Source of the DNA: Phycicoccus duodecadis
GTDB taxonomy: Bacteria > Actinomycetota > Actinomycetes > Actinomycetales > Dermatophilaceae
Direction of reading: 5' to 3'
DNA length: 64,000 nucleotides
Assembly (NCBI RefSeq): GCF_002846495.1
Contig: NZ_PJNE01000001.1
Location: 2,976,001 to 3,040,000, forward strand
Shown: in pieces, positions 43,041 through 61,386 of the stretch
Layout of the letters: the number at the start of each line of letters is the position of its first letter
Position numbering within the stretch: the stretch's first letter is position 1
The notes under the pieces: generated by a model
Database searches by the model: none
Told to the model about the DNA's origin: nothing
The model's input: only the letters and a program-made list of their open reading frames with translations
Program-made: the position numbers and the translations under genes

Positions 43041-43043
43041 GAG

Positions 43044-43907
43044 TCACGTCCTCTTCTTGGCCCGGCGCCGGCCGCGGGTTGCCTTCTTGCGCGTTAGAGC
43101 GTGGGCGGCCTTGGCATCCGTGATGCTGTCGCGGTCAAAGGGGGGCTGCAGCTCGTAGATGTTGCGGGTCGACAACCCCGTGGGGGAGAGCGGGTTGGGG
43201 AACTGCTCCTGGACCACATCCAGCAGGCCCGCATCACGCAACTCCTTGAAACCGCGCTCGGCGGTGTCTGCAGACCAGCCGTACCAAGCCGGCATGTGCT
43301 CGGTGGGCAGGGTGAACTCGGGCTTCTCCTTGAGTGCGACGAGAAGCATCGCGATCGCCGGAAGGCTCAAGGTCTGGTCCCAATCGCCGTTCCAGAACTC
43401 AGTGGTCAGCCGGAGAAACCTGTCTTCCGGAGACTTCCCCTGTGGTCGCGTGTACGGGGTGTTGGTGCCGTCACCCTTGAGCAGAGTGATGGTGACCGCT
43501 CGCTGGCGACCCGAACGACGCCGCGTGACGAGCTTGCGGTCGACGAGGCGACCGAGGATCTTCGTGGCGGCCGACGATGCCGAGCCCGCTTCGGCCGTCT
43601 CCACCGTGCCGAGCGCCCGCGCCCAGAGTCGAAGGTCGAGCGTGGAAGACCAGCCGTCGTCGCGGTCGCCGCTGCTGATGATGGTGTGCAGTAAGAGGAA
43701 GGCGAGCAGACCGCGCTTGTCACCGTTGCGGACGAACTCGGCCAGAGGACCGGGCTTCGACCCGCTCTTGCTCGGGGTCTGGACGAACACGTTGGGGACT
43801 GGGGCGAAAGGGCGCCCCGCCCGCAGGATCAGGTAATCCCGTGTGTCGCGAGCGGTGGCGGGGACTGTCCCGCTACCGCTACCTGATGCCGCTTCCGTCT
43901 TGCTCAC
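43044..43907 (-). CDS. Winged-helix DNA-binding protein of unknown role (island)
   Basis: 287 aa from GTG 43907. This start is chosen because a strong promoter box TATAAA ends six bases before it, making the mRNA leaderless; ATG 43925 lies upstream of that box. Two winged-helix-like segments are visible (KRGLLAFLLLHTIISSG with SAATKILGRLVDRKLVTRRR, and YGWSADTAERGFKELRDAGL). The C-terminus is very basic (TRKKATRGRRRAKKRT). It resembles Rep-like or regulator proteins of actinobacterial elements, but I cannot name a family. It is co-transcribed with the DUF3800-like gene. Confidence 0.6.
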   Translation of the reverse strand: MSKTEAASGSGSGTVPATARDTRDYLILRAGRPFAPVPNVFVQTPSKSGSKPGPLAEFVRNGDKRGLLAFLLLHTIISSGDRDDGWSSTLDLRLWARALGTVETAEAGSASSAATKILGRLVDRKLVTRRRSGRQRAVTITLLKGDGTNTPYTRPQGKSPEDRFLRLTTEFWNGDWDQTLSLPAIAMLLVALKEKPEFTLPTEHMPAWYGWSADTAERGFKELRDAGLLDVVQEQFPNPLSPTGLSTRNIYELQPPFDRDSITDAKAAHALTRKKATRGRRRAKKRT

Positions 43908-43913
43908 GTGCCA

Positions 43914-43941
43914 TTTATAGCGCATTGGGTCGGCCCAACAA
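43914..43941 (-). promoter_or_regulatory. Promoter of the winged-helix/DUF3800 operon
   Basis: On the minus strand: TTGTTG (43941-43936), 16 bases, TATAAA (43919-43914), six bases, GTG start. Just upstream lies the inverted repeat GCAGT-GA-ACTGC (43956-43967), a possible operator. Confidence 0.65.
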
Positions 43942-44000
43942 GAATCGGCTGAACGGCAGTGAACTGCTGCCACAGCGGGTGTCTGATAGAACCTGCTAGC

Positions 44001-44036
44001 CCACGTGCAAGGCCATCTGCAAGACCACGTGCAAGG
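44001..44036. repeat. Three 12-bp iteron-like tandem repeats
   Basis: CCACGTGCAAGG, CCATCTGCAAGA, CCACGTGCAAGG, directly abutting. They lie between the integrase 3' end and the winged-helix gene, a place where integrative elements keep recombinase arm sites, replication iterons or operators. The rest of 43926-44200 shows no gene. Confidence 0.75.
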
Positions 44037-44200
44037 GCTACCGCCAACTGCCGGTGGGGGGAGCAAGGTCGCGCGCCAATTCTTCCCTTCGAGGTGGGTG
44101 CTGGGTGTCCTCGCTGCCGATCCCCCTAGCCCTGCCAAGGATCGACTCGGGTCTCGAAGACTCGGGCAGCGCCACACGAGCCAGGCGCACGGCTCGACCG

Positions 44201-45412
44201 TCAAGTTCCAGAGAGTTCGCCTCCAAGACGCTTGAGTGCATCACGCGTCGATGTCGAGGAGACCTGGGAGTAGATCTCCATAGTGAGGGCGATGCGGCTG
44301 TGCCGGAGGACGGCCATCGCGACGCGCGGGTGGACATCGAGGGCAACAAGGAGGGTGGCGCAGGTCCGCCGAGTGGAGTGGATGGGGACGACAGGCACGC
44401 CGGCCTTCGCGGCCCTCAGCTTGAAGTCGCGGTGGAAGTTGCGTGGGTCGACCGGATCGCCCAGCCGGGTCGTGAAGACCAAGCCGCAGTCGCCCCACAT
44501 GTCGCCGGCCGCGAGCCGCCGCCTGGCCTCCTCGACCCGATGCCGCTCGAGTGCCCGCACCGCGATCTCCGGCAGCGGCAGCGGGGCATCTGAAGACGGC
44601 GTCTTCGTGTGTCGCCGGAGCAGCTGGTGGTCGACGCGCTGTACCTGCCACGCGATGAGCGCCTCGCCAGCCTCGAGGTCGACGTCCTCCCAGGCCAGCC
44701 CGAGCATCTCCCCGCGACGCAGTCCGAGCGTGAGCAGCAGGACGTACCCGGCGTACATCGGGTCACCATCCGCGCGCGCCGACTCCAGGAACCGCCGCGC
44801 CTCGTCGACGGTCCACACCGGCATCTTCTTCGACCGTGGCATGGGTACCCGCACGAGCGCGGCAACGTTGCGGAAGACGAGCTCCTCGCGCATCGCCTGG
44901 GTCAGCGCACCGCGCAGCACCCGCCACGCCTGGTGGACCGTCCAGTCCGAGGCGACCTCGTGGCAGCACGCGCCGAGGGCGCAGCACTGCGGCTCGGGGC
45001 GCGCGGCATCCTTGCCCTGGAAGCAGCACTGGCAGCGGACCCGCAGCGTGTTCACCCATACCTGGACGTCGCGGACCATCAGCTTTTCGAGCTTGCGGTC
45101 GCCGAGGTCCGGGACGATGTACAGCCGGGAGAACATCTCGTAGTTCGAGGTGGTGGCAGGCGACAGGGTGGGCTGCACGGTCTCCTCCAGCCATCGCTCG
45201 AGGAAGTCCCGCAGGCGCGGGGAGACCGGAAGCATCGGTCCCCGCCGCGCCTGCTCGTGGAGCCGAAGCCACTTGTCATGGACCTCCGGGCGGGTCTTCC
45301 CGTAGACGGTCTTGCGCTGCCGGCGACCCTTCGGCGTCACGATCCACACGTGCGCCGCGAAGCCGTTCCGGTACGGGTAGATCGACCCCTCGCCGTTCGG
45401 CGGCCGGCTCAC
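44201..45412 (-). CDS. Tyrosine site-specific recombinase (integrase) with Cys-rich insertion
   Basis: 403 aa from GTG 45412, which overlaps the excisionase remnant's stop. Catalytic residues: Arg232 in TLGLRRGEMLGL, His345 and Arg348 in IHSTRRTCATLL, His371 in VLRHSRIALT, and nucleophile Tyr381 in MEIYSQV. The N-terminal arm-binding part begins with GEGSIYPYRNGFAAHVW. Between them (127-151) is a zinc-finger-like insert with RCQCCFQGKDAARPE and QCCALGACCHE, known to me from integrases of actinobacterial integrative plasmids. It appears intact and probably brought the island in. Confidence 0.92.
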   Translation of the reverse strand: MSRPPNGEGSIYPYRNGFAAHVWIVTPKGRRQRKTVYGKTRPEVHDKWLRLHEQARRGPMLPVSPRLRDFLERWLEETVQPTLSPATTSNYEMFSRLYIVPDLGDRKLEKLMVRDVQVWVNTLRVRCQCCFQGKDAARPEPQCCALGACCHEVASDWTVHQAWRVLRGALTQAMREELVFRNVAALVRVPMPRSKKMPVWTVDEARRFLESARADGDPMYAGYVLLLTLGLRRGEMLGLAWEDVDLEAGEALIAWQVQRVDHQLLRRHTKTPSSDAPLPLPEIAVRALERHRVEEARRRLAAGDMWGDCGLVFTTRLGDPVDPRNFHRDFKLRAAKAGVPVVPIHSTRRTCATLLVALDVHPRVAMAVLRHSRIALTMEIYSQVSSTSTRDALKRLGGELSGT

Positions 45413-45504
45413 GGCCAGTCCGCCTCCGCCTCGGCCGGGCGCATCGCGACGTACTCGTCGACCCACGCCGGCAGGATGCGGCGCGACCCGCCGTTCTCGG
45501 CAGA
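45409..45504 (-). pseudogene. Excisionase (Xis) remnant, C-terminal end only
   Basis: The reading frame ending at 45409 encodes SRRILPAWVDEYVAMR, which matches the closing part of HTH-type excisionases. The expected N-terminal winged helix is not in this frame upstream; that DNA is unlike any Xis and faces a gene on the other strand. The frame still overlaps the integrase start by GTGA, as an intact xis-int pair would. It therefore looks truncated, and excision of the element may be impaired. Confidence 0.6.
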
Positions 45505-45636: not shown

Positions 45637-45879
45637 ATGGCCACGAAAGCGGAGCTGGAGAATTGGATCGTCGACGCACTGGGCGACGCAGGACGAGAGT
45701 TGTCCATCGTTGACGTTGCACGACATGTGTGGGAGCACCACGAGGTGGAGCTCAGGGCCTCGGGCGACCTCTTCTACACATGGCAGTACGACCTTCGGTG
45801 GGCGGCTCAGAATCTGAGGAACGACGGCGTGCTCGCCTCCAAAGAGGGACGTCGGTCTGGGGGCTGGAGACTGCGTTGA
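45637..45879 (+). CDS. Stand-alone Mrr-N-like winged-helix protein
   Basis: 80 aa, ATG 45637. ELENWIVDALGDAGRELSIV, then YDLRWAAQNLRNDGVLASKE and GGWRL, matches the pattern of the Mrr N-terminal domain (rWA...L...G.l....rG.W.L). No nuclease domain follows: the stop codon comes directly after and an insertion sequence begins 102 bases downstream. It may be a complete small DNA-binding protein or the remains of a restriction gene cut by rearrangement. Confidence 0.55.
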   Translation: MATKAELENWIVDALGDAGRELSIVDVARHVWEHHEVELRASGDLFYTWQYDLRWAAQNLRNDGVLASKEGRRSGGWRLR

Positions 45880-45981
45880 CCGCTCCCCAAGCGACAGGCA
45901 TTCGCTTAATCTGTGAGATGTCGTCCGAGTGCCACCGCGACCCATCCCCCTCTGGACGTGGGTGCGACTGCAAGACAGCGC

Positions 45982-47356
45982 CCCGTGGAGTGGTGGGGTT
46001 TGGGGTGACGGCGCGGCGTCCTGAATAGAAGGGGGCCACCGGCGAGATTCTCGATGTGTACCGCCAAGCACGCATCGAAGGAGACCTCACCGATGGCCTT
46101 GTCCCAGTCTGCCGTGTCCGAGCTGTTCGAGGTGTTCCGCACCGGCGAGGGCACCGATTTCATCCGTGAATGCGTCCGGGTGGCGATGCAGGAGCTGATC
46201 GAGACCGAGGCGGCGGCCGCGGTCGGCGCCGGCCGCTACGAACGGTCCGAGACCCGCACCACCGAACGCAACGGGTCCCGGCCGCGGCTGTTGACCACCC
46301 ATGCCGGGGACGTCCAGCTGGCGATCCCCAAGCTGCGCGCGGGCTCGTTCTTCCCGAGCATCCTGGAGCCACGCCGGCGGATCGACCAGGCGTTGTACGC
46401 GGTGGTCATGGAGGCCTACGTCCACGGCGTCTCCACCCGCTCCGTGGACGACCTCGTGGTCGCTCTCGGTGGGTCGGGGATCTCCAAGAGCGAGGTGTCC
46501 CGCATCTGTGCCGGGCTGGATGAGACGGTCGGGGCGTTCCGCACCCGCCGCCTGGACCATGTCGAGTTCCCGTACGTGTACCTCGACGCGACGTACCTGC
46601 ACGTGCGCACCGAGCAGGCCATGGTCACCTCCAAGGCCGTCGTCGTGGCCACCGGCGTCACCAGCCAGGGCCGGCGGGAGATCCTGGGCCTGGACGTCGG
46701 CGACAGCGAGGACGAGGTCTTCTGGCGGGCGTTCCTGACCGGGTTGAAGAAGCGCGGCCTGACCGGGGTCAAGCTCGTGATCTCCGACCAGCACGCCGGC
46801 CTGACCGCGGCCATCTCCCGTGCCCTGCAGGGCAGCTCACACCAACGGTGCCGGGTCCACTTCATCCGCAACGTCCTGGCCCACGTGGCCAAGGGCGAGT
46901 CCGAGATGGTCGCCGCGGTCTTCCGCACGATCTTCGCCCAACCCAGCCTCGCACCGATGAGCAAGCAGTGGGACAAGGTCCGCGACGAGCTCGCCGCCCG
47001 CTACCCCAAGATCGGCCCCTTGATGGACGACGCCAAAGCCGAGGTCCTCGCCTTCGCCGCGTTCCCCCGTGAGCACTGGCGCAAGATCTGGTCTACCAAC
47101 CCCCTGGAGCGGCTGAACAAGGAGATCAAGCGCCGCTCCCGGGTCGTGGGGATCTTCCCCAACGAAGCCGCCGTCATCCGCCTCATCGGAGCCGTCCTGG
47201 CCGACACCCACGACGAATGGGCCACCGACGAACGCCGCTACCTCTCCGAAGAATCCATGGCCAAGATCGGCACCACCGAGCATGATGACCCTGTCGCCCT
47301 CACCGAGGGTTGACCGGTCGGCATCGAGATGACCTCAAAGCCCACCACTCCACGGG
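45982..47356 (+). mobile_element. IS256-family insertion sequence 1
   Basis: 1375 bp bounded by 25-bp imperfect inverted repeats (two mismatches): left 45982-46006 starting CCCGTGGAGTGGTGGG, right 47332-47356 ending CCCACCACTCCACGGG. One transposase gene fills it. I find no convincing target-site duplication in the flanks. Confidence 0.85.
46093..47313 (+). CDS. IS256-family (Mutator-type) transposase
   Basis: 406 aa from ATG 46093 (AAGGAG about 10 bases upstream); a start at 46054 would add 13 residues. DDE residues are Asp165 (YLDATYLHVR), Asp232 (VISDQHAGL) and Glu339 (NPLERLNKEIKRR), with the CxxH-like QRCRVHFIRN between. Full length and intact, so probably active. Confidence 0.93.
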   Translation: MALSQSAVSELFEVFRTGEGTDFIRECVRVAMQELIETEAAAAVGAGRYERSETRTTERNGSRPRLLTTHAGDVQLAIPKLRAGSFFPSILEPRRRIDQALYAVVMEAYVHGVSTRSVDDLVVALGGSGISKSEVSRICAGLDETVGAFRTRRLDHVEFPYVYLDATYLHVRTEQAMVTSKAVVVATGVTSQGRREILGLDVGDSEDEVFWRAFLTGLKKRGLTGVKLVISDQHAGLTAAISRALQGSSHQRCRVHFIRNVLAHVAKGESEMVAAVFRTIFAQPSLAPMSKQWDKVRDELAARYPKIGPLMDDAKAEVLAFAAFPREHWRKIWSTNPLERLNKEIKRRSRVVGIFPNEAAVIRLIGAVLADTHDEWATDERRYLSEESMAKIGTTEHDDPVALTEG

Positions 47357-47419
47357 ACTCTTTCGACTGCAACAGCTGTGAGCGCCCGCTACGAGAGTCC
47401 CGCGGTCAGACTCGGTCAA

Positions 47420-48823
47420 GTCCCCGGTGGTGGTGTAACGCTGCGTGATCTTCGTTGGGTTAGGCGGTCAGGGCGGACATGGGTTCTGCTCCGTTCTCGG
47501 GGTCGGTGGTGGTGAGGGGGGTCAGGCGAGAGCGGGTCAGGACTTCCAGGCCGAGGTAGCGGCGTCCTTCTGCCCATTCGTCGGTCTGCTCGGCCAGGAC
47601 CGCGCCGACGAGGCGGACGATCGCTTCTCGGGTGGGGAAGATGCCGACGGAGTCGGTGCGGCGGCGGATCTCGCGGTTGAGGCGTTCGGCGGGGTTGTTG
47701 GACCAGATCTGGGTCCACACGTCCTTGGGGAAGGCGGTGAAGGCCAGGATGTCCTCGCGGGCGGCGGCCAGGTGCTGCGCGACCGCGGGCAGCTTGTCGC
47801 TGACGTAGTCGATCAGCCGGTCGAACTGGGCGTGTACGGCCGCGGCGTCGGGCTGGTCGTACACCGAGTGCAGCATCGCCTTGACGGCCGGCCACATGCT
47901 TTTGGGACAGATGCTCATCAGGTTCGCGGCGTAGTGCGTGCGGCAGCGCTGCCAGGACGCGCCGGGCAGGTTCGCCGCGATCGCCTCGACCAGCCCGGGG
48001 TGGGCATCGGAGGTGACCAGCTTGACCCCGGCCAGGCCGCGGGCGACCAAGTCGGCGAAGAACTCGTTCCACGCCGCCCCGGTCTCGCTGGTGGCCACCC
48101 GCATGCCCAGGACCTCACGGTGCCCGTCGCCGTTGACCCCGACCGCGACCAGGACGACCGCGTTGACCACCCGTCCTCCCTCGCGGACCTTCATCGTCAA
48201 CGCGTCCGCGGCCACGAACGTGAACGGCCCGGCCGGGCCCAGCGGGCGGTGGCGGAAGTCCTCGACCTGCTGGTCGAGGTCGGCGGCCATCCGCGAGACC
48301 TGCGAACGGCTCAGCGAGTCGATCCCCAAGGTCTTGACCAGCTTGTCCATCCGCCGGGTGGACACCCCAGCCAGGTAGCAGTCGGCCACAACGGTGACCA
48401 GCGCCGACTCCGCGCGCTTACGACGCTCCAGCAGCCACTGCGGGAAGTAGCTCCCCGTGCGCAGCTTGGGCACGGCCACGTCGATCGTGCCGACCCGGGT
48501 GTCCAGCTCGCGGTGGCGATAGCCGTTGCGCTGCGCGACCCGCTCCGGGCTGGGGCGTCCCCACTCCGCGCCGACCACCGCATCCGCATCCGCGGACAGC
48601 AACGCGTTGATGATCGACTGCAGCAGCGAACGCATCAGGTCCGGCGAGGCTTCGGCCAACGCCTCGCCAAGCAGCCCAGCAGGGTCGACAATGTGTGGTG
48701 CGGTCATCGTGATGCTCCGTTCGAGAGTGCTGTGAGAGGTTCACTCGAAGGATCACGCGGTGGCCGCATCCACGTCCAGCCCCAACCCGAGGACGGCGAC
48801 CGCGCTACACCACTATCAGGGAC
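47420..48823 (-). mobile_element. IS256-family insertion sequence 2
   Basis: About 1.4 kb. Ends GTCCCCGGTGGTGGTGTAAC (from 47420) and, inverted, GTCCCTGATAGTGGTGTAGC (to 48823): 22 bp with four mismatches. It lies only 63 bp from insertion sequence 1 and points the other way. No target duplication was found. Confidence 0.8.
47460..48707 (-). CDS. IS256-family transposase (second, distinct type)
   Basis: 415 aa, ATG 48707. DDE residues Asp168 ([10 protein letters not shown]), Asp234 (VTSDAHPGL) and Glu341 ([14 protein letters not shown]). It is clearly different in sequence from the other transposase, so the two elements arrived separately. Intact. Confidence 0.93.
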
Positions 48824-49039
48824 TCAACTTCAGACTCAGCTGTCAAGGTGTGCAACCGCCGTCTCGGAACACGCGATCACTCGAACCTCGACAAAGATGC
48901 CGGCTTCTCGCAATTGCCCACCAATGCGCGTCAACATGGCATGGTGGAGGGCCCGGGGCTGGCCAGTGGTCCACCGGCGAGGTGCGCCACTTCTGCGTCC
49001 GGGCTTGCGGATACGACTGAGAGCTGAAGCAGCGAATCT
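48824..49039. other. Gap between insertion sequence 2 and the defence operon
   Basis: 216 bases with no gene. It should contain the promoter of the GHKL-Z1 operon; I see no clear -35/-10 pair, and the ribosome site before ATG 49040 is weak. The insertion sequence right end may affect expression of the operon. Confidence 0.5.
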
Positions 49040-50500
49040 ATGGCAACTGAGGAGTACATCCCCCCTGAGCCGCATTTGATGGGTTCCATGCGTTCTGTGG
49101 GGTACACGTTGGAGGCGGCTATCGCCGATCTCGTTGACAACTCGATCACTGCGGGCGCATCACGCATCGACATCTTGTTCGCCAGCGAACCTACTGATTT
49201 CGTGGCTGTCCTCGACGATGGAGAGGGTATGTCGCGTGACGCAGCTCGCGAGGCAATGCGTCTGGCGGCTCGCAGCTCGACCGAACAGCGCTCGGCTGAG
49301 GACCTCGGGCGCTTCGGCCTTGGACTCAAGACGGCTTCCCTCTCCCAATGCCGGGACTTGACGTTGGTGAGCAAGACACCCGAGGGAGTGGTCGCCTACT
49401 CCTGGAATCTGGATCACCTCTTCCGCGAAGGCACGTGGTCCCTCCTCCTGCTGGACGAGGCCGAGGTTGCTGCGTTGCCCTGCGTTGAGCGGCTCCTCGC
49501 CCAGCAGACGGGCACTCTCGTTCTCTGGCGCGACCTCGACCAGCTGCGAGCACATGCCGGATCGTCTGCGTCCGAGCTCGACGCAGTGATGGTGGGCGTG
49601 CGCGATCACCTCGGCCTCGTCTTCCACCGCTTCATCGGCGATTCCAGACGCCCACTCGCCATCCGGCTTAACGGTCGCGGGATTCCCGCCGTCGACCCGT
49701 TCCTCTCGAGTCACCGACGAACGCAGCGTCTGCCGTCCGAGTCCTTCAAGGTCGAGGGCTCGACAGTCACAGTTCAGCCGTACACCGTGCCACGACTGAC
49801 AACCCTGTCTTCAGCCGACCGTGCCAGTCTGCAGGTGGCCGGCCAACTCCGTGACAGCCAAGGGTTCTACATCTACAGGGCTCGTCGCCTCGTCATCTGG
49901 GGAACCTGGTTTCGCATCCTTCCCAGGCAGGACATGGCGAAGCTTTCGAGAGTCCAAGTCGACGTCCCCAACACGCTCGACCACCTATGGGCCTTGGACA
50001 TCAAGAAGGCCACTGCGCAGCCACCACCTGAAGTCCGGCGGCGGCTCAAGAAGTTCGCCGAGCGCGTGACGGTTCCGAGCAAGAACACCCTCAACTGGCA
50101 AGGCCGCAAAGAGAGTGGCCCGACCCAGCACGTCTGGCAGCTCGTGACCCACGAGCACGGATTCAGCTACGCGCTCAATCGGAGCCATCCGGCCGTGGAC
50201 GCCGCACTCGTGGCTTCTGGGGGACAGGGAGAGGCAGAGCTCGGGCGGCTTCTCACCCTTATCGAGGGCACGATGCCCGGCGACGACATCTTCAATCGGT
50301 TGGCCAAGGATCAGGTATTGGAGAACCGGCTGGAAGACCTTGCTATCGCCGAGATCGCCCGTGACATGTGGACGACCTACTCGGCAGTCCCGGGGTCCGC
50401 AGCGACTGACGTGGCGTTTGTCGCGGCGATGATCAACGTCGAACCCTTCAGCGACCACCCCCGCGGCGCTGACATCCTCAAGGAGGCAACGCGTGGCTGA
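49040..50500 (+). CDS. GHKL (MORC/MutL-like) ATPase, defence operon gene 1
   Basis: 486 aa. The Bergerat ATP site is clear: YTLEAAIADLVDNSITAGAS (N-box; Asp30 stands where MutL has its Glu base, Asn34 binds Mg), LDDGEGM (G1), GRFGLGLKTASLSQC (G2). A transducer-like S5 domain follows (DHLGLVFHRFI, YIYRARRLVIWG). The C-terminal about 130 residues are helical. Such ATPases are prokaryotic relatives of eukaryotic MORC and recur beside Z1 and methylase genes in predicted restriction-like systems. It likely acts as an ATP-driven DNA clamp or switch for its operon partners. It overlaps the Z1 gene by 8 bases. Confidence 0.88.
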   Translation: MATEEYIPPEPHLMGSMRSVGYTLEAAIADLVDNSITAGASRIDILFASEPTDFVAVLDDGEGMSRDAAREAMRLAARSSTEQRSAEDLGRFGLGLKTASLSQCRDLTLVSKTPEGVVAYSWNLDHLFREGTWSLLLLDEAEVAALPCVERLLAQQTGTLVLWRDLDQLRAHAGSSASELDAVMVGVRDHLGLVFHRFIGDSRRPLAIRLNGRGIPAVDPFLSSHRRTQRLPSESFKVEGSTVTVQPYTVPRLTTLSSADRASLQVAGQLRDSQGFYIYRARRLVIWGTWFRILPRQDMAKLSRVQVDVPNTLDHLWALDIKKATAQPPPEVRRRLKKFAERVTVPSKNTLNWQGRKESGPTQHVWQLVTHEHGFSYALNRSHPAVDAALVASGGQGEAELGRLLTLIEGTMPGDDIFNRLAKDQVLENRLEDLAIAEIARDMWTTYSAVPGSAATDVAFVAAMINVEPFSDHPRGADILKEATRG

Positions 50501-53219
50501 GACCGAAGCGATGGAGCGACTCAAGCTCGCCACGAGCGGCGCCCTCAGCACGGGGTTGCACACGGAGCAGCAACTCCGCGACATGGTCGCCGCTCTGCGA
50601 CCGATTTTGGCTCCCGCCGCTTCGGACGACGAGATCGACTCGATGACGCGTGAGCTCATTCAGAGGCTGCAGATCGATGTCGACCTAGGCACCGCGGTGA
50701 CATCCGAGGACTTCGTGTCCTGGCTTCCAGAACGGCGAGGCGAGATCGAGTGGACACGCTGGAAGGCCTACAAGCAGTGGCTGCTCCAGAACGACCGTCC
50801 TCCGAAGATCGTGGACAAGCTGGGTCACCTGACCGATGAGATCCTGGATCTCGTCGGCGATCCCAAGGCAGGGGGCACGTGGGGGCGTCGGGGCCTGGTG
50901 ATCGGTGAGGTCCAGTCTGGAAAGACTGGCACCTACCTGGGACTCTTCAACAAGGCCGCTGACGCGGGATACAGACTGATCATCGTGCTAGCCGGCAGCA
51001 CCGAGAGCCTGAGACAGCAGACACAGGAGCGACTGGATGAAGCCTTCATCGGTCGCGACACCCGACTGATCGCGCAGAAGGGCGGACAGACCAACCAGCA
51101 CGCGAGCAAGAAGTTCCTCGGCATCGGTCTTCTCAACGAGACGATCGCCGACGCGCAGAGCATGACTACGGTGATGCAGGATTTCCGCAAGTCGAGCCTT
51201 ATGGCCTCGAGCATCACGGTGTCGGAGAACACCCCATCGCCGTACGTTTTTGTCCTCAAGAAGAACAAGAGCGTCCTCAACGCCGTGCAGGATTGGCTGG
51301 GTCAACAGGCCGGCGCCAGCGGCCGGATAGACCTACCTCTGCTGTTGCTCGACGACGAGTCCGACTATGCGTCCGTCAATACGGCCGATGAGGACTCCCC
51401 CACGGCCATCAACGCAGCAATCCGAGGGATCCTCGCCAAGTTCACACGCAGTTCATACATTGCGTTCACGGCCACTCCCTTCGCCAACATCTTCATCGAC
51501 CACGACCACGAGAACGATCTGTTTCCGAGGGACTACGTCTACAGCCTTGAAACGCCCACCAACTATGTGGGAGCAACCGCGACGTTCGGCACGAGCGACG
51601 ACGTATTCGAGGGCGGGCTCATGGATGTGACTGACGCCGAGGCCTACGTCCCGCGCCAGCACAAGCCGAACGATTCGGTACCTGGACTCCCGCCGAGCCT
51701 CAAACTGGCGATCCGGACCTTCTTCATCGCGACCGCGGTCCGAGACCTCCGCGGCCACGGTGGAGGTCGCGCAATGTTGGTGAACGTGTCACGGTTCAAG
51801 AACGTCCAGCGTCAGGTTCACGAGCTGGTCGAGCAGTACGCCGTCGAGCTTCGCAATGCGGTCGAGTTCCACGCCGCTGATTACGCCCACGGGCGGCCCA
51901 ACGCACACCTCGAGTCCATCGAAGAGACCTACGTACAGGTGTACTCGGAAGTCGGGTTCTCTTGGGCGCAGATACTTGATGCACTGTGGACCTCCGTGGC
52001 GGACGTTCGCGTCACCTTGGTGAACTCCGACAGGGACAAGGCCCTGATCGACCAAGAGATGGCTTGGGACAAGCCGCCCCGGATGATCGCCGTGGGAGGG
52101 GACGTCCTGAGCCGAGGACTGACGCTCGAAGGTCTGACGACCAGCTACTTCTATCGGCGTGCTGGCGCCTTCGACACCCTGATGCAAATGGCGCGTTGGT
52201 TCGGCTACCGCGACGGGTACGAGGACCTCACTCGACTGTGGATCACCACGGATGTTGCCGATCAGTTCCGATTCGTCGATGACGCCGTTCGGGAACTCCG
52301 GGATGACCTCGCGGAGATGAAGGCCCAGCGTCTGACTCCAGCGGATTTCGGGCTGGCAGTGAAGAAGCACCCAGAGAGCTTGTTGGTGACGGCTCGGAAC
52401 AAGATGAAGGCCGCGACCACCTTCAAGAAGTCTGTCTCCTTGGGCGGCCGGCGAATTGAAACGGTACGGCTCAACGGCAGTGATGGGAGCCTCTCTACGA
52501 ATGAGTCGGCCATCAAGTCACTGCTGGCGGACCTCGGTGCTTCAGCCGAACCGGCGAACCGTATGAACTGGCCAGGTTGGCGTGGAGTCGCCAAGTCGAC
52601 GATTGCCGACTACTTGGACGCCTTGGTGACAGATCAAGGGGAACTCATCTGGACAGGGGAGAACCTCCAGACCTTCGTCCGGAACGCTAAGTCACCTAGC
52701 ATGCAGAAATGGGACGTGGTATTGGTGAACGGCAAGAAGACCGGTGCTCCCGACACGAGCCTCGGAGTCTCCTTTCATCCTCCCGAGCGCACACTTTCCG
52801 TGTCTGACGGTGATGTCCTCAGGGTGTCGGGTGCTTCGGCCAGACTGGCCGGCTCCACAGACGTCGCGTCGCTGAATTTCATTCCCACGAAAGCCCGGGA
52901 AGCAGCGGAAGCAGCCTTCTGGGACTCACGGACGTGGCCAGAGGGCAAGCGCCCGAAGAACGTTCCGGAAACGGCGGTCTATCACTGCTTGCCGCGTCCT
53001 GTGCTGATGCTCTACCCGCTGCGAGCCAAGTGGAAAAACTCTGTCACACCTCTTGGGTTCGAGCACGTCGACGGGCACCTAGTCGTGGCAACCAAGATCG
53101 CCATTCCCGGGCGACACGTGAACGTCAACGACACCTCCACGGACGCTGAATACATCATCAACACGGTTGCACAGCAGGGCTGGCTCGCACAGTTGGAATG
53201 GGGGACCGATGCAGACTGA
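50493..53219 (+). CDS. Z1-domain superfamily II helicase-like ATPase
   Basis: 908 aa; GTG 50493 with AAGGAGG 6 bases upstream. Motifs: Walker A GEVQSGKT (138-145), Walker B LLLLDDESDYAS (D287-D291), motif III FTATPFAN (325-332), and the Z1-specific GGDVLSRGLT (535-544) with YFYRRAGAFDTLMQMARWFG. Z1 ATPases are predicted DNA translocases or unwinding enzymes found in restriction-like operons. The C-terminal about 250 residues carry no motif I know. Overlaps the next gene by 11 bases. Confidence 0.93.
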   Translation: MAETEAMERLKLATSGALSTGLHTEQQLRDMVAALRPILAPAASDDEIDSMTRELIQRLQIDVDLGTAVTSEDFVSWLPERRGEIEWTRWKAYKQWLLQNDRPPKIVDKLGHLTDEILDLVGDPKAGGTWGRRGLVIGEVQSGKTGTYLGLFNKAADAGYRLIIVLAGSTESLRQQTQERLDEAFIGRDTRLIAQKGGQTNQHASKKFLGIGLLNETIADAQSMTTVMQDFRKSSLMASSITVSENTPSPYVFVLKKNKSVLNAVQDWLGQQAGASGRIDLPLLLLDDESDYASVNTADEDSPTAINAAIRGILAKFTRSSYIAFTATPFANIFIDHDHENDLFPRDYVYSLETPTNYVGATATFGTSDDVFEGGLMDVTDAEAYVPRQHKPNDSVPGLPPSLKLAIRTFFIATAVRDLRGHGGGRAMLVNVSRFKNVQRQVHELVEQYAVELRNAVEFHAADYAHGRPNAHLESIEETYVQVYSEVGFSWAQILDALWTSVADVRVTLVNSDRDKALIDQEMAWDKPPRMIAVGGDVLSRGLTLEGLTTSYFYRRAGAFDTLMQMARWFGYRDGYEDLTRLWITTDVADQFRFVDDAVRELRDDLAEMKAQRLTPADFGLAVKKHPESLLVTARNKMKAATTFKKSVSLGGRRIETVRLNGSDGSLSTNESAIKSLLADLGASAEPANRMNWPGWRGVAKSTIADYLDALVTDQGELIWTGENLQTFVRNAKSPSMQKWDVVLVNGKKTGAPDTSLGVSFHPPERTLSVSDGDVLRVSGASARLAGSTDVASLNFIPTKAREAAEAAFWDSRTWPEGKRPKNVPETAVYHCLPRPVLMLYPLRAKWKNSVTPLGFEHVDGHLVVATKIAIPGRHVNVNDTSTDAEYIINTVAQQGWLAQLEWGTDAD

Positions 53220-54174
53220 CGACATCCAGCAACAGTGGTCTCGTCTGTGCTCGGAGAAGTCGCCGGCCAAGAAGTACTTCGATCCCGAGCATCCACTCGA
53301 GTTCCTGTTTGGCGCCGACGATCGTGGTCGAGCGGTGATGGCGCTGATCACTCCTGAAGATCCAAAGCTGGACGACGTCAGTCGGGATGTCTCGACGCAC
53401 TCCTCGCGACGCGAGGACGGGCGGTGGGCGACCACCTGGACGCTCGGGGACCAGTCGTTGTTCCCCACCTTCGTCCGGCTCGGTGTGGACCTCGCTCATA
53501 GGTCCGCCACTCCCACGCCCCCTCACACTGCTATCGATGAGTTCCTCCTTGCCCTCGCGCAATGGCAGGTGCTTCTTCGACCACGACCGCCCAAACGACT
53601 CAACTTGGAACGGCTCCGCGGTCTGGTCGCTGAGCTGTGGGCCGGCGAAACCGTAGTCGGCGAGGGCAAACCCCGTGACGAGCTCGTGCGTGCGTGGTCC
53701 GGTCCACTCGGCGGTGTTCAGGACTACACGTTTCCGTCGGGGCATGTCTGGGAGGTGAAGGCCAAGCGATCCAAGGCCACCACGGTCAAGGTCTCGTCGG
53801 CAGAGCAGCTCGACCCAGCAGACAAGTCACTGCATTTGGTAGTGCTGGACCTCGACGAACGATCGTCCGACTTTGACGGCGCCCGCTCCTTGGTCGACCT
53901 GGTACGGGCTTGGAGGGAGGAGCTCGGCGCCAACCCGGCTGAGCGCCACCTACTGGACCTCTTGATCTCACGCTTGGGCGTCGATCTCTCAGATCCCTAC
54001 TACGAGGAGACATGCTTCACGCTGCAGCAAATGACCGTGTTTCGGGTAAACGGGGAGTTCCCCAGCCTCCGAGCCGCTGACATGCCGAGCCCTGTCAGCG
54101 CGGTGAGATACCAATTCGACGTGCGAGGACTGGAGTCGTGGATCGTGGAAGGTGATGGGACCAGCCGTGAGTGA
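53209..54174 (+). CDS. PD-(D/E)XK motif protein (putative nuclease), defence operon gene 3
   Basis: 321 aa. ATG 53209 lies within the Z1 gene's last 11 bases. The nuclease motif is Asp172 in LGGVQDYTFPSG and Glu182-Val-Lys184 in VWEVKAKRS. The N-terminus contains an alpha/beta region (YFDPEHPLEFLFGADDRGR). The domain belongs to the family annotated as PD-(D/E)XK motif proteins that accompany Z1 and AIPR genes. Likely role: DNA cleavage arm of the system, guided by the ATPases. It overlaps the AIPR gene by 20 bases. Confidence 0.85.
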   Translation: MQTDDIQQQWSRLCSEKSPAKKYFDPEHPLEFLFGADDRGRAVMALITPEDPKLDDVSRDVSTHSSRREDGRWATTWTLGDQSLFPTFVRLGVDLAHRSATPTPPHTAIDEFLLALAQWQVLLRPRPPKRLNLERLRGLVAELWAGETVVGEGKPRDELVRAWSGPLGGVQDYTFPSGHVWEVKAKRSKATTVKVSSAEQLDPADKSLHLVVLDLDERSSDFDGARSLVDLVRAWREELGANPAERHLLDLLISRLGVDLSDPYYEETCFTLQQMTVFRVNGEFPSLRAADMPSPVSAVRYQFDVRGLESWIVEGDGTSRE

Positions 54175-56215
54175 CTTCCTCTCAGAACTACTGAACACCG
54201 TCGAGGTGCGGGCCGACGTCGAGAACGATCTCACCGCCGCAGCGTTCGTGGCCGAGATGGCCGACCGGATGGCCGCGGCGGAGGAGATCGAGAACCTCGT
54301 CCCCATCCACTTCCGGGGTCAGAGTGGGCGCCGTCGAAGCGGGGTCGATGGACACGATCTGGGCGATACTGATGACTCTGTCGCCTTGGCCATCGCGCAC
54401 TTTGATGGTTCCGGCGGAGGAGGAACAATCGGTAACGCTGAGATCCAGCGCCTCTTCGGCCTGCTCGAGGCGTACTTGGTCGATGCCGTCGCCGGCACTT
54501 TCCCCGACGACCGCGAGCCCTCCGAACCGGCAGTCCAATTGGCGCGCGACCTCCACAGCAGGGGACGATCCATCACGCGATTCCGTCTGTATCTGTTCAC
54601 TGACCTTGCGTTGGGTTCCAGAGTGGCCAAGCTTCCCTCGACCAGCGTCGGCGGTATCCCAGTCGACTTCCACGTCTGGGACCTGCGGCGGTTAGAGGCG
54701 CTTGCGACGTCATCCCAAGGGCGCGATCAGCTGGATCTTGACCTGACGGAGTGGAGCCCAAGCGGAGTTCCGGCCCTGAGCGTCCTTGGGGAAGGAAAGT
54801 TCGAGACGTACTTGGCGGCAGTCCCCGGACATCTTCTCGCCGATCTGTATGGGCGTTATGGGAGTCGCCTGCTGGAGAGCAACGTTCGTTCGTTCCTCAG
54901 CGGGCGGGGGAACATAAACAAGGGAATACGAACTACGCTTCTCAGCGAGCCACTGCTGTTCCTCGCCTACAACAACGGTGTCACCGCGACGGCCACCGCG
55001 GTGGAGACCGGCTCCGACGGTGCGATCTTGGGACTCCGCGACCTCCAGATAGTGAACGGCGGTCAGACGACAGCTTCCCTGTTCTACGTGCGTCGTGACA
55101 CCTCGCCCAAGCCCGACCTCTCCAAGGTCCACGTCCAGATGAAACTCGTTGTTGTCGAACCTGAGACAGCGGGGGATCTCGTTCCGAACGTCTCGCGCTT
55201 CGCGAACAGTCAGAACCGGATCAGCGAGGCGGACTTCTTCTCCAACAGTCCCTTCCACGTTCGCATGGAGACGTTGTCCCGACAGGTCCTCGTTCCGAGC
55301 ATGGCTGGGACGCATTTCCAAACGAAGTGGTTCTACGAGCGAACCCGAGGCCAATATCAGAACGAGAAGGCAAAACTGACTCAGGCCGAGGCCAAGAAGT
55401 TCGAAGCGGTGTACCCCCGCTCTCAGCTCATGACTAAGACTGACGCCGCCAAGTATTCCGTGTCTTGGGGTCAAGAGCCTCACAAGGTGAGTGCTGGGGC
55501 CCAGAAAAACTTCCTTGCCTTTGCGAATTCCGTCGCGCGCCTTTGGGGGTGCAACGATTCGCAATTCAACGAGGCGTATTTCAAAGAGCTGGTGGCGAAG
55601 GCCATACTCTTTCAGACGATTCGCACCCGCGTCGCTAGAAGCGAGTGGTACCAGTCCGGATACCTTGCCAACATCGTGGCTTACACAATGTCAAAACTTT
55701 CTCACACGATCTCCTCGCAGGCTCGGGGGGCGCGTTTGGACTTTCTAGGGATATGGAATCAGCAGTGCGTCCCCGACAAAGTGCTTGATGCGAGCCTCGA
55801 GGTCGCTCATCTGTGCTTCCAAGCGCTTACGTCCGAGCATCGCCCGATCCAGAATGTGACGGAATGGGCAAAGCGCGAGCAGTGTTGGGAATTGGTGAAG
55901 TCAATCCCATACAGTCTTCCAAAGTCCCTCTCGGACGAATTGGTTTCGGCCGAAGCCATGAGTCAAGTCCACAGGGATGCACGTGCTACACAAAAAATTG
56001 ACGACACGATCGCGGCGCAGTCCAAAGTCTTCGAGGTTCAGGTAGACGAATGGAGGCGCATGCACTCGTTCTGCCGTGAGAACGGCCTTCTTTCCCCTGC
56101 CGATAACGACATTGTCGGGCTCATGACAGGATCGCGACCGAAGGTTCCGAGTGAACGCCAAGCTGCGCGACTCCTCAGTATCCGCCAACGCGCCCTCGAC
56201 CACGGCTTCGACTGA
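54155..56215 (+). CDS. AIPR family protein (abortive-infection type), defence operon gene 4
   Basis: 686 aa from ATG 54155 (GTG 54152 and GTG 54167 are possible). The AIPR core is shown by LLFLAYNNGVTATAT (Asn273-Asn274) and QIVNGGQTTASLFYVRR (Val300-Thr305), then NSQNRISEADFFSN. AIPR proteins were first linked to abortive phage infection, and the mechanism is not settled. The DNA in the second half is noticeably less GC-rich than the chromosome, a sign of transfer. It ends the four-gene overlapping operon. Confidence 0.9.
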   Translation: MGPAVSDFLSELLNTVEVRADVENDLTAAAFVAEMADRMAAAEEIENLVPIHFRGQSGRRRSGVDGHDLGDTDDSVALAIAHFDGSGGGGTIGNAEIQRLFGLLEAYLVDAVAGTFPDDREPSEPAVQLARDLHSRGRSITRFRLYLFTDLALGSRVAKLPSTSVGGIPVDFHVWDLRRLEALATSSQGRDQLDLDLTEWSPSGVPALSVLGEGKFETYLAAVPGHLLADLYGRYGSRLLESNVRSFLSGRGNINKGIRTTLLSEPLLFLAYNNGVTATATAVETGSDGAILGLRDLQIVNGGQTTASLFYVRRDTSPKPDLSKVHVQMKLVVVEPETAGDLVPNVSRFANSQNRISEADFFSNSPFHVRMETLSRQVLVPSMAGTHFQTKWFYERTRGQYQNEKAKLTQAEAKKFEAVYPRSQLMTKTDAAKYSVSWGQEPHKVSAGAQKNFLAFANSVARLWGCNDSQFNEAYFKELVAKAILFQTIRTRVARSEWYQSGYLANIVAYTMSKLSHTISSQARGARLDFLGIWNQQCVPDKVLDASLEVAHLCFQALTSEHRPIQNVTEWAKREQCWELVKSIPYSLPKSLSDELVSAEAMSQVHRDARATQKIDDTIAAQSKVFEVQVDEWRRMHSFCRENGLLSPADNDIVGLMTGSRPKVPSERQAARLLSIRQRALDHGFD

Positions 56216-56299
56216 GCCCCGTCTATGCGGGAAAAACTGGTTCCGAGCACCACCATTTCCCGCGCGGCCGGTCGGACAGGTCAGTTGTGACTGCCTCTC

Positions 56300-56323
56300 T
56301 GTCGCGTCGTGATTGACGCGACA
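56300..56323. promoter_or_regulatory. 9-6-9 perfect inverted repeat upstream of the methyltransferase
   Basis: TGTCGCGTC (56300-56308), six bases, GACGCGACA (56315-56323). It could terminate the upstream operon, but no T-run follows. It lies about 180 bases before the methyltransferase -10, so a protein-binding site is also possible. Confidence 0.6.
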
Positions 56324-56504
56324 CGAAGGCATCCGCAGCAGCCTCTGGGGGCCGAACAGAGGGGTCAAGCCGAAGGGGTGCAACAGTCGTCGTGGGGAAG
56401 GGCCTCGAGGCCTCGGGAGTCGATCGTCAGCTACCTTCTCGCGTGGTCTGTGCAGATCGTCCCAGTCCTCGGCTGGCTGGGAGGAGCCTGTCGCCGGCTC
56501 CTCG

Positions 56505-56510
56505 TACACT
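56505..56510 (+). promoter_or_regulatory. -10 box TACACT of leaderless methyltransferase transcript
   Basis: TACACT, seven bases, ATG 56518. No ribosome site is seen upstream. No obvious -35. Confidence 0.55.
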
Positions 56511-56517
56511 CTTGCCG

Positions 56518-58434
56518 ATGACCGCCGTAGAGAATCCGAACGTTTCGCGCTTCGCGCGTGGTCAGGCACTGCGCCTACGACGGAACGCGGACCACTGCAG
56601 CGAGCCCGCAGAGCTGTTGGAATTGGTGCGGCGGATGCGGTCCTCAGCGGACAGCCCGCTGTTGGCGGCAGACCTCTTCTCGGGGGCGGGGGGGATGAGT
56701 CTCGGCCTGGAGCAGGCCGGCATGCGGGTCATCTTCGGTGCTGACTTCGATGCAGATGCCCTAGAAACGCACGCCCATCACTTCGCGGGGATGTCTGTCG
56801 GTTGGGACTTGGGTGACCCCGAGCGGGTCCAAGAAGTGGGTGCCATCCTTCGCTCGGTCGAGATCGACGTCGTGGCCGGTGGTCCCCCATGCCAACCGTT
56901 CTCCAAAGCTGGTCGTTCAAGGATGCGCTACCTCGTGAAGCACGGTGTGCGAGAGCGCCACGACAAGCGCAGGGACCTCTGGCAGTCCTACTTGGAGATC
57001 GTTCGCTTGGCGCAACCTCGCGCGGTCATCATGGAGAACGTGCCCGATATGGCGCTCGACCGTGAGATGTTCATCCTTCGCTCCATAGTGCGCCGTCTTG
57101 AGGACTGGGGGTACTCGGTTCAGCCTCGCGTAGTGGACACCTATCGGTATGGCGTCCCCCAATTCCGTCAGCGTTTGATACTGGTCGCGATTTTGGGCGG
57201 TCTCGCGTTCACGTGGCCCCCAGAGTCGAGCAAAAAGGTGACTCTGGGGAATGCGATCCAAGATCTGCCACCTGTGGATCCCCAGGACGGATGGGTCTCT
57301 GAGGCGAATCAGGCTGGATGGCGAAAATATGCGGGGCCGAAGACAGAGTTCCAGCGCGAGATGCGAAGTTCAGTCGCCCCGGCCCAAGCAGATCGCGTCT
57401 ACGACCATGTGACGCGACGCGTGAGGCCTGACGATGAGGCTGCCTTCGAGCAGCTCGACACCAAGACCCGCTACTCAGAGCTGCCAGTGGAACTCAAGCG
57501 CTATCGGGACGACATCTTTGACGACAAGTACAAGCGACTTGACGCGAATGACTTGTCGCGTACGATCACTGCGCACATCGCCAAAGACGGGTACTGGTAC
57601 ATCCATCCGGAGCAGAACCGGACCTTGACGATCAGAGAAGCGGCCCGGATCCAGACCTTTCCGGACCATTTCCGCTTCGCGGGATCACCTACGTCGGCCT
57701 TCCGTCAGATCGGAAACGCTGTACCGCCTCGCCTCGCGCGCGCCGTCGGAGCCGCTGTTGTAGACGTGGTGGAGCGGGGTGCACCTCGACTTGCCGTCAC
57801 CACTTCGGACACGAAGGCAGCGTTGGCGGCTTGGTTCCAGAGTTCGAGCGCGATCAGCCCTTGGCTCCGAACGGACTCTCGCTGGATGGTGGTTCTGGGG
57901 GATACCATTCTCGGCTCAGAATCCGCGACCGTGATCGCGGCTCTTTGGCCCAGCGTGTCCGCTTGGGAATCCGCTCGGAAGTTCTTGGAGAATCAGGGCC
58001 GCGCCATCGAGATCGTCGGCTGGCTGGGGCGGCCAGGTTTGGCGGATCAACTGGTCGAAGCTGCAATGGCGGTGGTGGCCTCGGGGGGATCGCTCGACGA
58101 CGCCCAGCTGAACAGGCTGGTCACGAGCGGAACGCTCCGCGCGACGACCGCTCAACTGGCGATGCTTACGGTCCCCGAAGGAGAGGAGCCAGTGGTTGCC
58201 AACACAGGCGCTCTGCGCGTTGCTGGCCGCTACTTCCAAGGGACTGAAAGGTGGCTCAAGAACCGGAACTCAGATGGGCGGATCGCGGTCGGACGCTTGA
58301 TCGGATTCGACGAAGAAAGTACGAAGGCCCAAGTAGCGTTGATTGAGGTCGGCGCAAAGGTATGTACGCCCAAGGCGCCCGAGTGCCGGGTCTGCCCGCT
58401 CGTCTCATGGTGTAGGTACGCTTCTGACCGCTGA
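56518..58434 (+). CDS. C5-cytosine DNA methyltransferase fused to HhH-GPD (MutY/Nth-like) Fe-S domain
   Basis: 638 aa from ATG 56518. Methyltransferase motifs: I ADLFSGAGGMSLGLEQAG (51-68), IV GGPPCQPFSKAG with catalytic Cys125, VI IMENVPDM (Glu173), VIII QFRQRLILVAI, X IGNAVPPRLARA. After motif X comes an about 190-residue domain that follows HhH-GPD glycosylases: ILGSESATVIAALWPSV, VGWLGRPGLADQL, NTGALRVAGRY, VALIEVGAKVCTPKAP, and a final Cys616-x6-Cys623-x2-Cys626-x5-Cys632 loop, exactly the MutY/Nth Fe-S spacing. The usual catalytic Asp (of D-T-N-V-x-R-V) aligns with Asn562. It methylates host DNA; the added domain may handle T:G mismatches or only bind DNA. Confidence 0.9.
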   Translation: MTAVENPNVSRFARGQALRLRRNADHCSEPAELLELVRRMRSSADSPLLAADLFSGAGGMSLGLEQAGMRVIFGADFDADALETHAHHFAGMSVGWDLGDPERVQEVGAILRSVEIDVVAGGPPCQPFSKAGRSRMRYLVKHGVRERHDKRRDLWQSYLEIVRLAQPRAVIMENVPDMALDREMFILRSIVRRLEDWGYSVQPRVVDTYRYGVPQFRQRLILVAILGGLAFTWPPESSKKVTLGNAIQDLPPVDPQDGWVSEANQAGWRKYAGPKTEFQREMRSSVAPAQADRVYDHVTRRVRPDDEAAFEQLDTKTRYSELPVELKRYRDDIFDDKYKRLDANDLSRTITAHIAKDGYWYIHPEQNRTLTIREAARIQTFPDHFRFAGSPTSAFRQIGNAVPPRLARAVGAAVVDVVERGAPRLAVTTSDTKAALAAWFQSSSAISPWLRTDSRWMVVLGDTILGSESATVIAALWPSVSAWESARKFLENQGRAIEIVGWLGRPGLADQLVEAAMAVVASGGSLDDAQLNRLVTSGTLRATTAQLAMLTVPEGEEPVVANTGALRVAGRYFQGTERWLKNRNSDGRIAVGRLIGFDEESTKAQVALIEVGAKVCTPKAPECRVCPLVSWCRYASDR

Positions 58435-58443
58435 GGGTGCTTG

Positions 58444-59733
58444 CTAAAGGCTCAACTGATCAGCCAGCTCGGGGTGCCGCGCTCGGAGCAGATGCAGAAC
58501 AGAGCTGTAGTCGCCTAGTTCTCGGTCATCGATCAGCGCCGCCTTCAAAGCAACTCCTATGTCGCGGAGCGCCATATCCGAGGCTCTGGACCCCTTGGGC
58601 GTGGCTTCTGCCCTCGCCGTCGTGTTGGCTGACCGTCGGTAGGCATCGTCCGCAAGAACGCACAACTCATGTATCGGGCGTTCCAACATCTGCCGAACCA
58701 TAGGGGGGAGGGCTACGTGCATCTTGGCCACGTTTATCTGGAAGTCCTCGTCCAGGTCCGTTCCAAAATCCAAACTCGCACGTGCAAGTTTCGTGTGTTC
58801 GTCGATCCCTCTCAGGCCTGACCAGCCACCGTGCTGCACCAAGCGATCCGCCCGGTAGATGTACAACCCCTGCTGTCGGTTCCACTTCTGCGGCCCGGAG
58901 AGCCGTTCGAACTGCTCGAGCGAGGAGAACCGATCCCGGGCCGGAAGGACGACGCCTTGGAAGCGCACCTCCGAGCTGCCGGAGCCGTTCTCCACCTCGA
59001 AGATCTGTTCCGGGAGGACCGTCCGCTCCCGCTCGTGCGGGGCGAAGGGGTCCCACGCTTCCAACTTCGCGTCATCGACGCAGATCACGACCGGGTCGCC
59101 GCGGCCGACCTCGCCGGCGATGAACCTGTGGAACACCATGGCCAGATGGTCGGCGGTACGGGACGCGAGCGAACTGAGGCGGCGCCGCCCCCACCCCGTC
59201 TCGGCATAGCGCTCCGGAAGGACGCGATCTAGGTCCTCCCACACGACGACCGTGCCCGGGGACTCGCGCAGCAGGTCCTTTGCCCGCTCGATCGCTGGAG
59301 AGGTCTCGTCAACCGTGATGTCCCAACTGTCGGTCGTCGCGATCCGGTTGAGGTCCAACGTCATCACTTGGAAACGGGCAAGCGTCGGAGCGGTGCGACT
59401 CACAACCGTCAAGCGACGGCACTGCGAGAACGAGCCGGTCTTGAGGCCGAGTCCGAACCTACCCAGCTCATTCTTCTTGTAGTCGCGTCGCGTGCCGAAC
59501 CGAAGCGCCTCCACCAACTCGCCCTGCGACATGCCGCGACCGTCGTCGCTGATGAGTACATAGGAGTCATGAGGTACGAACTGGGTGAAGACATTGATTC
59601 GCGACGCCCCGGCGGCAATCGAGTTGTCCACGAGATCGGCGATCGCAGTGGTGAAGTCGTACCCGATGTCACGCAGTGATCCGGTCAGCCGTGCGGCAGA
59701 GGGTGCAACCTGCAATGCTCTGAGTCCTGCCAT
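58444..59733 (-). CDS. Second GHKL (MORC/MutL-like) ATPase
   Basis: 429 aa from ATG 59733 (AGGAGG nine bases upstream; TTG 59742 abuts that site and is less likely). ATP-site motifs: FTTAIADLVDNSIAAGAS, ISDDGRGM, GRFGLGLKTGSFSQC. It is a clear paralogue of the protein at 49040-50500: shared blocks include ADLVDNSI/TAGASRI, FHRFI and LYIYRADRLV. Its gene converges on the methyltransferase with 9 bases between stops and is divergent from vsr. It may form the methyltransferase/Vsr half of the system, while the other ATPase serves the Z1 operon (inference). Confidence 0.88.
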   Translation of the reverse strand: MAGLRALQVAPSAARLTGSLRDIGYDFTTAIADLVDNSIAAGASRINVFTQFVPHDSYVLISDDGRGMSQGELVEALRFGTRRDYKKNELGRFGLGLKTGSFSQCRRLTVVSRTAPTLARFQVMTLDLNRIATTDSWDITVDETSPAIERAKDLLRESPGTVVVWEDLDRVLPERYAETGWGRRRLSSLASRTADHLAMVFHRFIAGEVGRGDPVVICVDDAKLEAWDPFAPHERERTVLPEQIFEVENGSGSSEVRFQGVVLPARDRFSSLEQFERLSGPQKWNRQQGLYIYRADRLVQHGGWSGLRGIDEHTKLARASLDFGTDLDEDFQINVAKMHVALPPMVRQMLERPIHELCVLADDAYRRSANTTARAEATPKGSRASDMALRDIGVALKAALIDDRELGDYSSVLHLLRARHPELADQLSL

Positions 59734-59747
59734 CCCTGTCAACCTCC

Positions 59748-59753
59748 TAGAGT
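59748..59753 (+). promoter_or_regulatory. -10 box TAGAGT of leaderless vsr transcript
   Basis: TAGAGT, seven bases, ATG 59761. It lies in the 27-base gap to the divergent GHKL gene, so the two promoters must overlap the other gene's leader. Confidence 0.5.
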
Positions 59754-59760
59754 TGAAAGC

Positions 59761-60261
59761 ATGCCAGGCGAGAAGCGAGCAGTCCTGCGCGGCGGGGGCG
59801 TGTCGCGCCTAGGGTATTTGACGGCGCAGACGTTCGTGTCACCGCCGGTCAGCGCTGCGGCGCGGAGCACGATGCGCGCGAACCGGGGACGCGACACCGG
59901 GCCGGAGCTCGCCATCCGGTCGCGGCTACACCGAGCAGGCCTTCGTTACCGCGTCGACCTGCCACTTCCCTTCGACCGTCGAAGGCGAGCGGACCTTGGG
60001 TTCACGCGGGTGGGGCTGTATGTCTTCGTGGACGGCTGCTTCTGGCACGGTTGCCCGAAGCACTTCGTCATTCCGAAGACCCGCACAGACTTCTGGGTTG
60101 CCAAGATTGAGTCCAACCGACGGCGGGACCGAGACACAGATGACCGGCTCCGGGAGCTGGGCGCGACTCCCCTCCGGATCTGGGAGCACACCCCCGCTGC
60201 TGTGGCGTGTGACCTCATACGTGCCACCTACTTCGAACTCGCAGTCCCAGGGAGGCTTTAG
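59761..60261 (+). CDS. vsr: Vsr-type very-short-patch-repair endonuclease
   Basis: 166 aa. Family signatures: MRANRGRDTGPELAIRSRLH, GLRYRVDLPLPFDRRRRADL (Asp78), VFVDGCFWHGCPKH, DFWVAKIESNRRRD, PLRIWEHT. Vsr nicks 5' to the T of T:G mismatches made by deamination of 5-methylcytosine, and in this type of island it accompanies a C5-methyltransferase. Here it is 1.3 kb from that gene. Some Vsr-like proteins in such islands may serve as restriction nucleases instead. It is the last gene of the island. Confidence 0.94.
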   Translation: MPGEKRAVLRGGGVSRLGYLTAQTFVSPPVSAAARSTMRANRGRDTGPELAIRSRLHRAGLRYRVDLPLPFDRRRRADLGFTRVGLYVFVDGCFWHGCPKHFVIPKTRTDFWVAKIESNRRRDRDTDDRLRELGATPLRIWEHTPAAVACDLIRATYFELAVPGRL

Positions 60262-60318
60262 CCGCGCACCACGCTTGCTTCCACGACTTGGTCGGGTTGG
60301 TGAGCGGACTGCCGGTTC

Positions 60319-61377
60319 TCAGCGGAGGACCGGACCCCCATCGGGCGCCGGCTCGGTGCTGAGCTCGCACCCGTCCACCAGCGGGTGCACGCGCCACTGG
60401 TGCTCGGTCTTCCCCTGACGCTTGATGACGTCGTCGCGCTCGGCGGCGTCGAAGGCCGCATCAAGCCGGTCCTTGACGCCCACGGTGTCGGACGACCAGT
60501 CGCCATCCCAGCTCCCCACCACGGTGCAGGCCTTGATGGGGTGCAGCTCGTTCCAGCCAGTGTGCAGAGAGTCGAAGACCCAGCGCCCCCGCACGTAGAG
60601 CAGGTCGGAGCCGAGGCCCTTGTCGTCGGGCTGGTGGATCTCGGTCGGCGCGCCCTCGACGTCCGACGGTGACCCGGCGTCCCCCACCCCAATGGCCCCT
60701 CCGAGCAGCGCGGCCAGGAGCGCGAGCAGCGCGAGGATGCCCCCCACGATCCAGCCGAACGGTGGGGGGAGCGCCACGCACAGGGCCCAGGCCGCGAGCG
60801 CCAGCCCGTAGGCGACCAGCAGCCCCACCCGGAAGTCAGCGATGCCGGCCCCCTCGAACTCGGCGTGCAGGACGGCGGTCGAGGGCAGCACGCCCTTCTT
60901 GTCCCGGGCCTTCTCGCCGGTGAAGAAGCCCACGTGGTCGCGCACCCCGTCGGTCTCGGCCGCGAGGTACCCGTACGGGACGCTGGTCTCGAGGTGGGCC
61001 TGGTCGACGCCGGGCATCGTCGGGTAGACGAGCAGGTTGATGGAGTAGTCGGTGTCGAGGGCATTGGCGATGGTCTTCGGGTCACCGAGGTCCACGTTGC
61101 CGACCTTCTCCTGGGGGGTCTCGACGCTGATCACCGCACCGATGACGCTCTCGTCGCCGCCGAGGCAGACGAGCCGGATGTTCAGCCACCAGTCGCAGAA
61201 GGCGACCCCGCCGGCCGCCGCGAACGCCTCGATGAGGATCAGCCCGCACGGGAAGGTGCCGTAGCCGAGCAGGGCGAAGATGGCCGCGATCGCAGCGGTG
61301 GCGGTCGCGATGTAGGCGGCCGGCGACATCCACGACATCGGCTGGCTGCAGAGGGTGTACTGCTTGTATCCGGCCAT
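60319..61377 (-). CDS. Hypothetical membrane protein
   Basis: 352 aa from ATG 61377 (GAGGTG upstream). I do not recognise the family. Hydrophobic helices lie at about 20-55 (AAYIATATAAIAAIFALLGY, GLILIEAFAAAGGVAF) and 180-230 (GLLVAYGLALAAWALCVAL, GWIVGGILALLALLAALLGG). Soluble parts between and after contain paired His/Trp segments (LLYVRGRWVFDSLHTGWNEL, VGSWDGDWSS) that could bind a ligand. Very high GC, so it belongs to the core chromosome. Nine bases downstream of the CARDB-like gene and probably co-transcribed with it. Confidence 0.7.
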   Translation of the reverse strand: MAGYKQYTLCSQPMSWMSPAAYIATATAAIAAIFALLGYGTFPCGLILIEAFAAAGGVAFCDWWLNIRLVCLGGDESVIGAVISVETPQEKVGNVDLGDPKTIANALDTDYSINLLVYPTMPGVDQAHLETSVPYGYLAAETDGVRDHVGFFTGEKARDKKGVLPSTAVLHAEFEGAGIADFRVGLLVAYGLALAAWALCVALPPPFGWIVGGILALLALLAALLGGAIGVGDAGSPSDVEGAPTEIHQPDDKGLGSDLLYVRGRWVFDSLHTGWNELHPIKACTVVGSWDGDWSSDTVGVKDRLDAAFDAAERDDVIKRQGKTEHQWRVHPLVDGCELSTEPAPDGGPVLR

Positions 61378-61386
61378 CACGTCACC

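Follow-up and report, generated by a model that had tools for sequence, protein, structure and literature searches.

The closest described relatives of a seven-gene locus in Phycicoccus duodecadis (a 64,000-nt window to which all positions refer; the loci of Terracoccus and other genomes carry L numbers) are the MZA system and the MORC operons. The MZA system (mzaABCDE) is credited in PMC9523054 to Gao et al. 2020. Among the MORC operons of Iyer, Abhiman and Aravind 2008 (PMC2292703), the third type, as far as the accessible parts of that paper go, likewise combines a superfamily 2 helicase with a DThhQXuRhFG motif, a restriction endonuclease-fold nuclease, MORC or paraMORC proteins, DNA methylases and Vsr, with AIPR named in a figure legend; a fused glycosylase-like domain is not mentioned in these parts. 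The first-pass annotation had pointed to this prediction, and the matching gene kinds bear the link out. A Type II candidate system, there without a bench test, is described by Miller et al. 2022 (PMC9523054). The available portions of that article mention no Fe-S domain in its methyltransferase and tie DNA repair endonucleases to Type I, unlike in the window, where Vsr accompanies a Type II-like set. The window locus is a predicted DNA-defence island of this already described kind, and its family is present in 17 of 394 genomes of the same class.

The locus contains homologues of MzaB, MzaC, MzaD and MzaE in the order of MZA (PADLOC). However, these score below the NCBIfam equivalog cut-offs (289, 476, 78 and 335 bits versus 850, 1500, 420 and 1050), and no match to the MzaA sigma factor was obtained among the ten proteins scanned by PADLOC from 46054-61380. 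In addition to the MZA genes, a methyltransferase, a second MORC protein and Vsr are present. The annotated gene set (GHKL, Z1, PD-(D/E)XK, AIPR, C5 methyltransferase, opposite-strand GHKL and Vsr) was confirmed by Pfam, PADLOC, TIGR00632 and conserved residues. The proposed restriction-like system is partly supported. The core forms one module and the modification/repair genes another.

The boundary between the two modules is a mosaic junction at 56173..56550 (no strand). In blastn, the homology to the Terracoccus locus L002 stops at 56172 and that to L053 starts at 56551, leaving 378 bp unmatched. The window and Terracoccus share the same core, while their methyltransferases are unrelated. 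According to this comparison, the nuclease core is exchanged independently of the modification cassette, and the marking genes, judged from sequence, have the look of a swappable unit attached to a nuclease core that is distinct from them. The most economical reading would be that a restriction-like defence core accepts different modification cassettes. In that case the core would recognise the report of the cassette, or methyltransferases of unlike sequence would have a common target. With this natural pair it becomes testable whether core or cassette carries the self/non-self specificity. The L102 locus, otherwise window-like with seven genes, has an unclassified 1002-aa open reading frame (L102:6575-9583) that separates AIPR from the methyltransferase.

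The same differing nearest relatives of the two halves and the unmatched junction would also be expected if two independent systems were merely neighbours, namely an MZA-related core with no need of methylation and a self-sufficient module of methyltransferase, MORC2 (GHKL2) and Vsr. Several cores indeed have other methyltransferases or methyltransferases at a distance, and L098 contains only a tailed methyltransferase and GHKL2, though at a contig end. Such independence is considered unlikely, if still worth keeping in mind.

The methyltransferase itself (56518..58434, + strand; start codon picked by comparison with relatives) is a C5-cytosine methyltransferase (Pfam DNA_methylase, 6.2e-57) that falls in clade A of the tree. 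Its C-terminal tail (57799..58431, +) is a MutY/Mig-like [4Fe-4S] pseudo-glycosylase domain. The HhH-GPD (MutY/Nth) glycosylase fold extends across the full domain, and the tail resembles MutY and the T:G glycosylase structure 1kea (Mig) in both fold and sequence. The four cluster ligands (CX6CX2CX5C) are Cys in 181/181 relatives and in 23/23 copies from the loci. The catalytic Asp, on the other hand, was found in none of these relatives or locus copies and is likewise replaced in four of four further copies; in the window the position is occupied by Asn (codon 58201-58203). In the same alignment, the genome's own MutY and Nth retain the Asp. That the catalytic residue is lost and the cluster ligands are retained points, as far as sequence can tell, to a role in structure, reading or docking.

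A methyltransferase paired with a T:G glycosylase is already known from M.MthTI and Mig.MthI, which are separate, active proteins. Common to both cases is the link of a cytosine methyltransferase to a protein of the MutY/Mig fold. In the window, however, the tail is fused to the methyltransferase and lacks the catalytic Asp. It has nevertheless to be considered that the tail works as a mismatch glycosylase, so that the methyltransferase itself excises thymine (or adenine) at deaminated target sites with Vsr as backup. The likeness to MutY and 1kea is in line with this, as is the presence of Vsr near 19 of the 21 loci with a tailed methyltransferase. The first MutY acid position is also Glu or Asp in 178/181 relatives, although in only 13/23 locus copies. 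Besides the consistently replaced Asp, the hairpin GVG is missing from 177/181 relatives and 22/23 locus copies, and a working glycosylase is regarded as improbable. The tail gave no PF00730 match at E 0.1 in Pfam, and its NCBIfam mutY score (32.3 bits, E 7.4e-08) lies far under the cut-off of 286.5. This Fe-S MutY-fold module without the catalytic Asp is a domain without a Pfam model, which the locus adds to what is described for the methyltransferase of this family. No publication dealing with a MutY-like tail on a methyltransferase was found by title or abstract start, with queries that were partly narrow and covered few subscription journals; AIPR, MORC, glycosylase and MutY all go unmentioned in the accessible part of PMC12458937.

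GHKL2 accompanies the methyltransferase in 14/14 clade A loci versus 0/7 loci with clade B only. The pairing of the tail with GHKL2 in clade A suggests that MORC2 is its partner. Weighing against MORC2 as the sole partner, clade B methyltransferases retain the tail without GHKL2, and for this reason the partner may also be Vsr, AIPR or GHKL1.

The same tailed methyltransferase also occurs beside other cores: in the DISARM hybrid loci L055-L059 together with GHKL2 and Vsr, and in the PDC-M33A-like loci L053, L103 and L070, the first two of which also have GHKL2 and Vsr. It is conceivable, if rather doubtful, that the tail is a dedicated checkpoint reader, which examines the sites of its own methyltransferase, be they unmethylated, hemimethylated or deaminated, and passes a signal on via the neighbouring MORC. 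The cassette would thereby tell any of three cores (MZA-type, DISARM-type or PDC-M33/Type I) what is self, and defence specificity would be exchanged with the cassette and not with the nuclease. The hybrid loci contain DISARM DrmA and DrmB, a MzaA-like sigma protein, AIPR and GHKL2 (L055:1-14016, likewise L056-L059; PADLOC covers L055 only), and two tailed methyltransferases, which belong to different clades and converge on a Vsr gene lying between them.

The core starts with GHKL1 (49040..50500, +), a MORC-type ATPase of the MzaB family (Pfam HATPase_c_3; PADLOC MzaB, 2.1e-71). Its residues D33, N34, D59, G61, G63, G93, G95 and K97 are invariant across 11 alignment rows, and its MORC motif reads GFYIYRARRLV. 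The GHKL ATP-site motifs and the GhXhhpXXRhl signature of prokaryotic MORC ATPases are present at the locus. GHKL2 (58444..59742, - strand; ATG about 59733) also has a HATPase_c_3 match (5.2e-28) and the MORC motif, and the earlier assignment of two MORC-like ATPases stands. GHKL1 is followed by the MzaC homologue (50493..53219, +; PADLOC 5.3e-118) and the PD-(D/E)XK nuclease of the DUF4420/MzaD family (53209..54174, +; longest open reading frame from 53167; Pfam DUF4420 1.2e-42, PADLOC MzaD 1.5e-13). The E-D-ExK signature of the latter (E156, D186, E196 and K198) is invariant in 10/10 rows. The AIPR/MzaE protein (54152..56215, +; Pfam AIPR 2.1e-89, AIPR_N 3.4e-31; PADLOC MzaE 2.3e-80) is the presumed effector. 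Vsr (59761..60261, +), a mismatch endonuclease, passes TIGR00632 with 102.3 bits versus a curated cut-off of 97.85.

Upstream of the core, an 80-aa gene (45637..45879, +), helix-turn-helix-like by eye and without a match in Pfam, is 77.8% identical to L002:7533-7775, the only match in the 39 loci searched. In Terracoccus this gene is conserved directly upstream of Vsr-GHKL1. In the window, two transposases of opposite orientation (45974-48707) sit between it and the core, at the Terracoccus Vsr position. The first belongs to an IS256-family element (45974..47364, +; transposase 46054-47313; NCBIfam transpos_IS256 3.1e-109) that ends in 33-nt inverted repeats with 85% complementarity. The second is of the Mutator/IS256 type (47460..48707, -; Pfam Transposase_mut 1.8e-132). 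The insertion could mean that the pair took the place of the resident Vsr and left the operon disconnected from its promoter, which would make the locus a relic. No remnant of a Terracoccus-type Vsr was found at the transposase site (best E 0.12). Against such decay, all seven reading frames are open with their catalytic residues retained, and the cassette brought a second Vsr; a relic is considered quite unlikely. Between tRNA-Ala and the core, the region 42450-45466 contains a tyrosine integrase, a weak match to MarR_2 (0.0049, below cut-off) and a weak match to DUF3800 (0.081).
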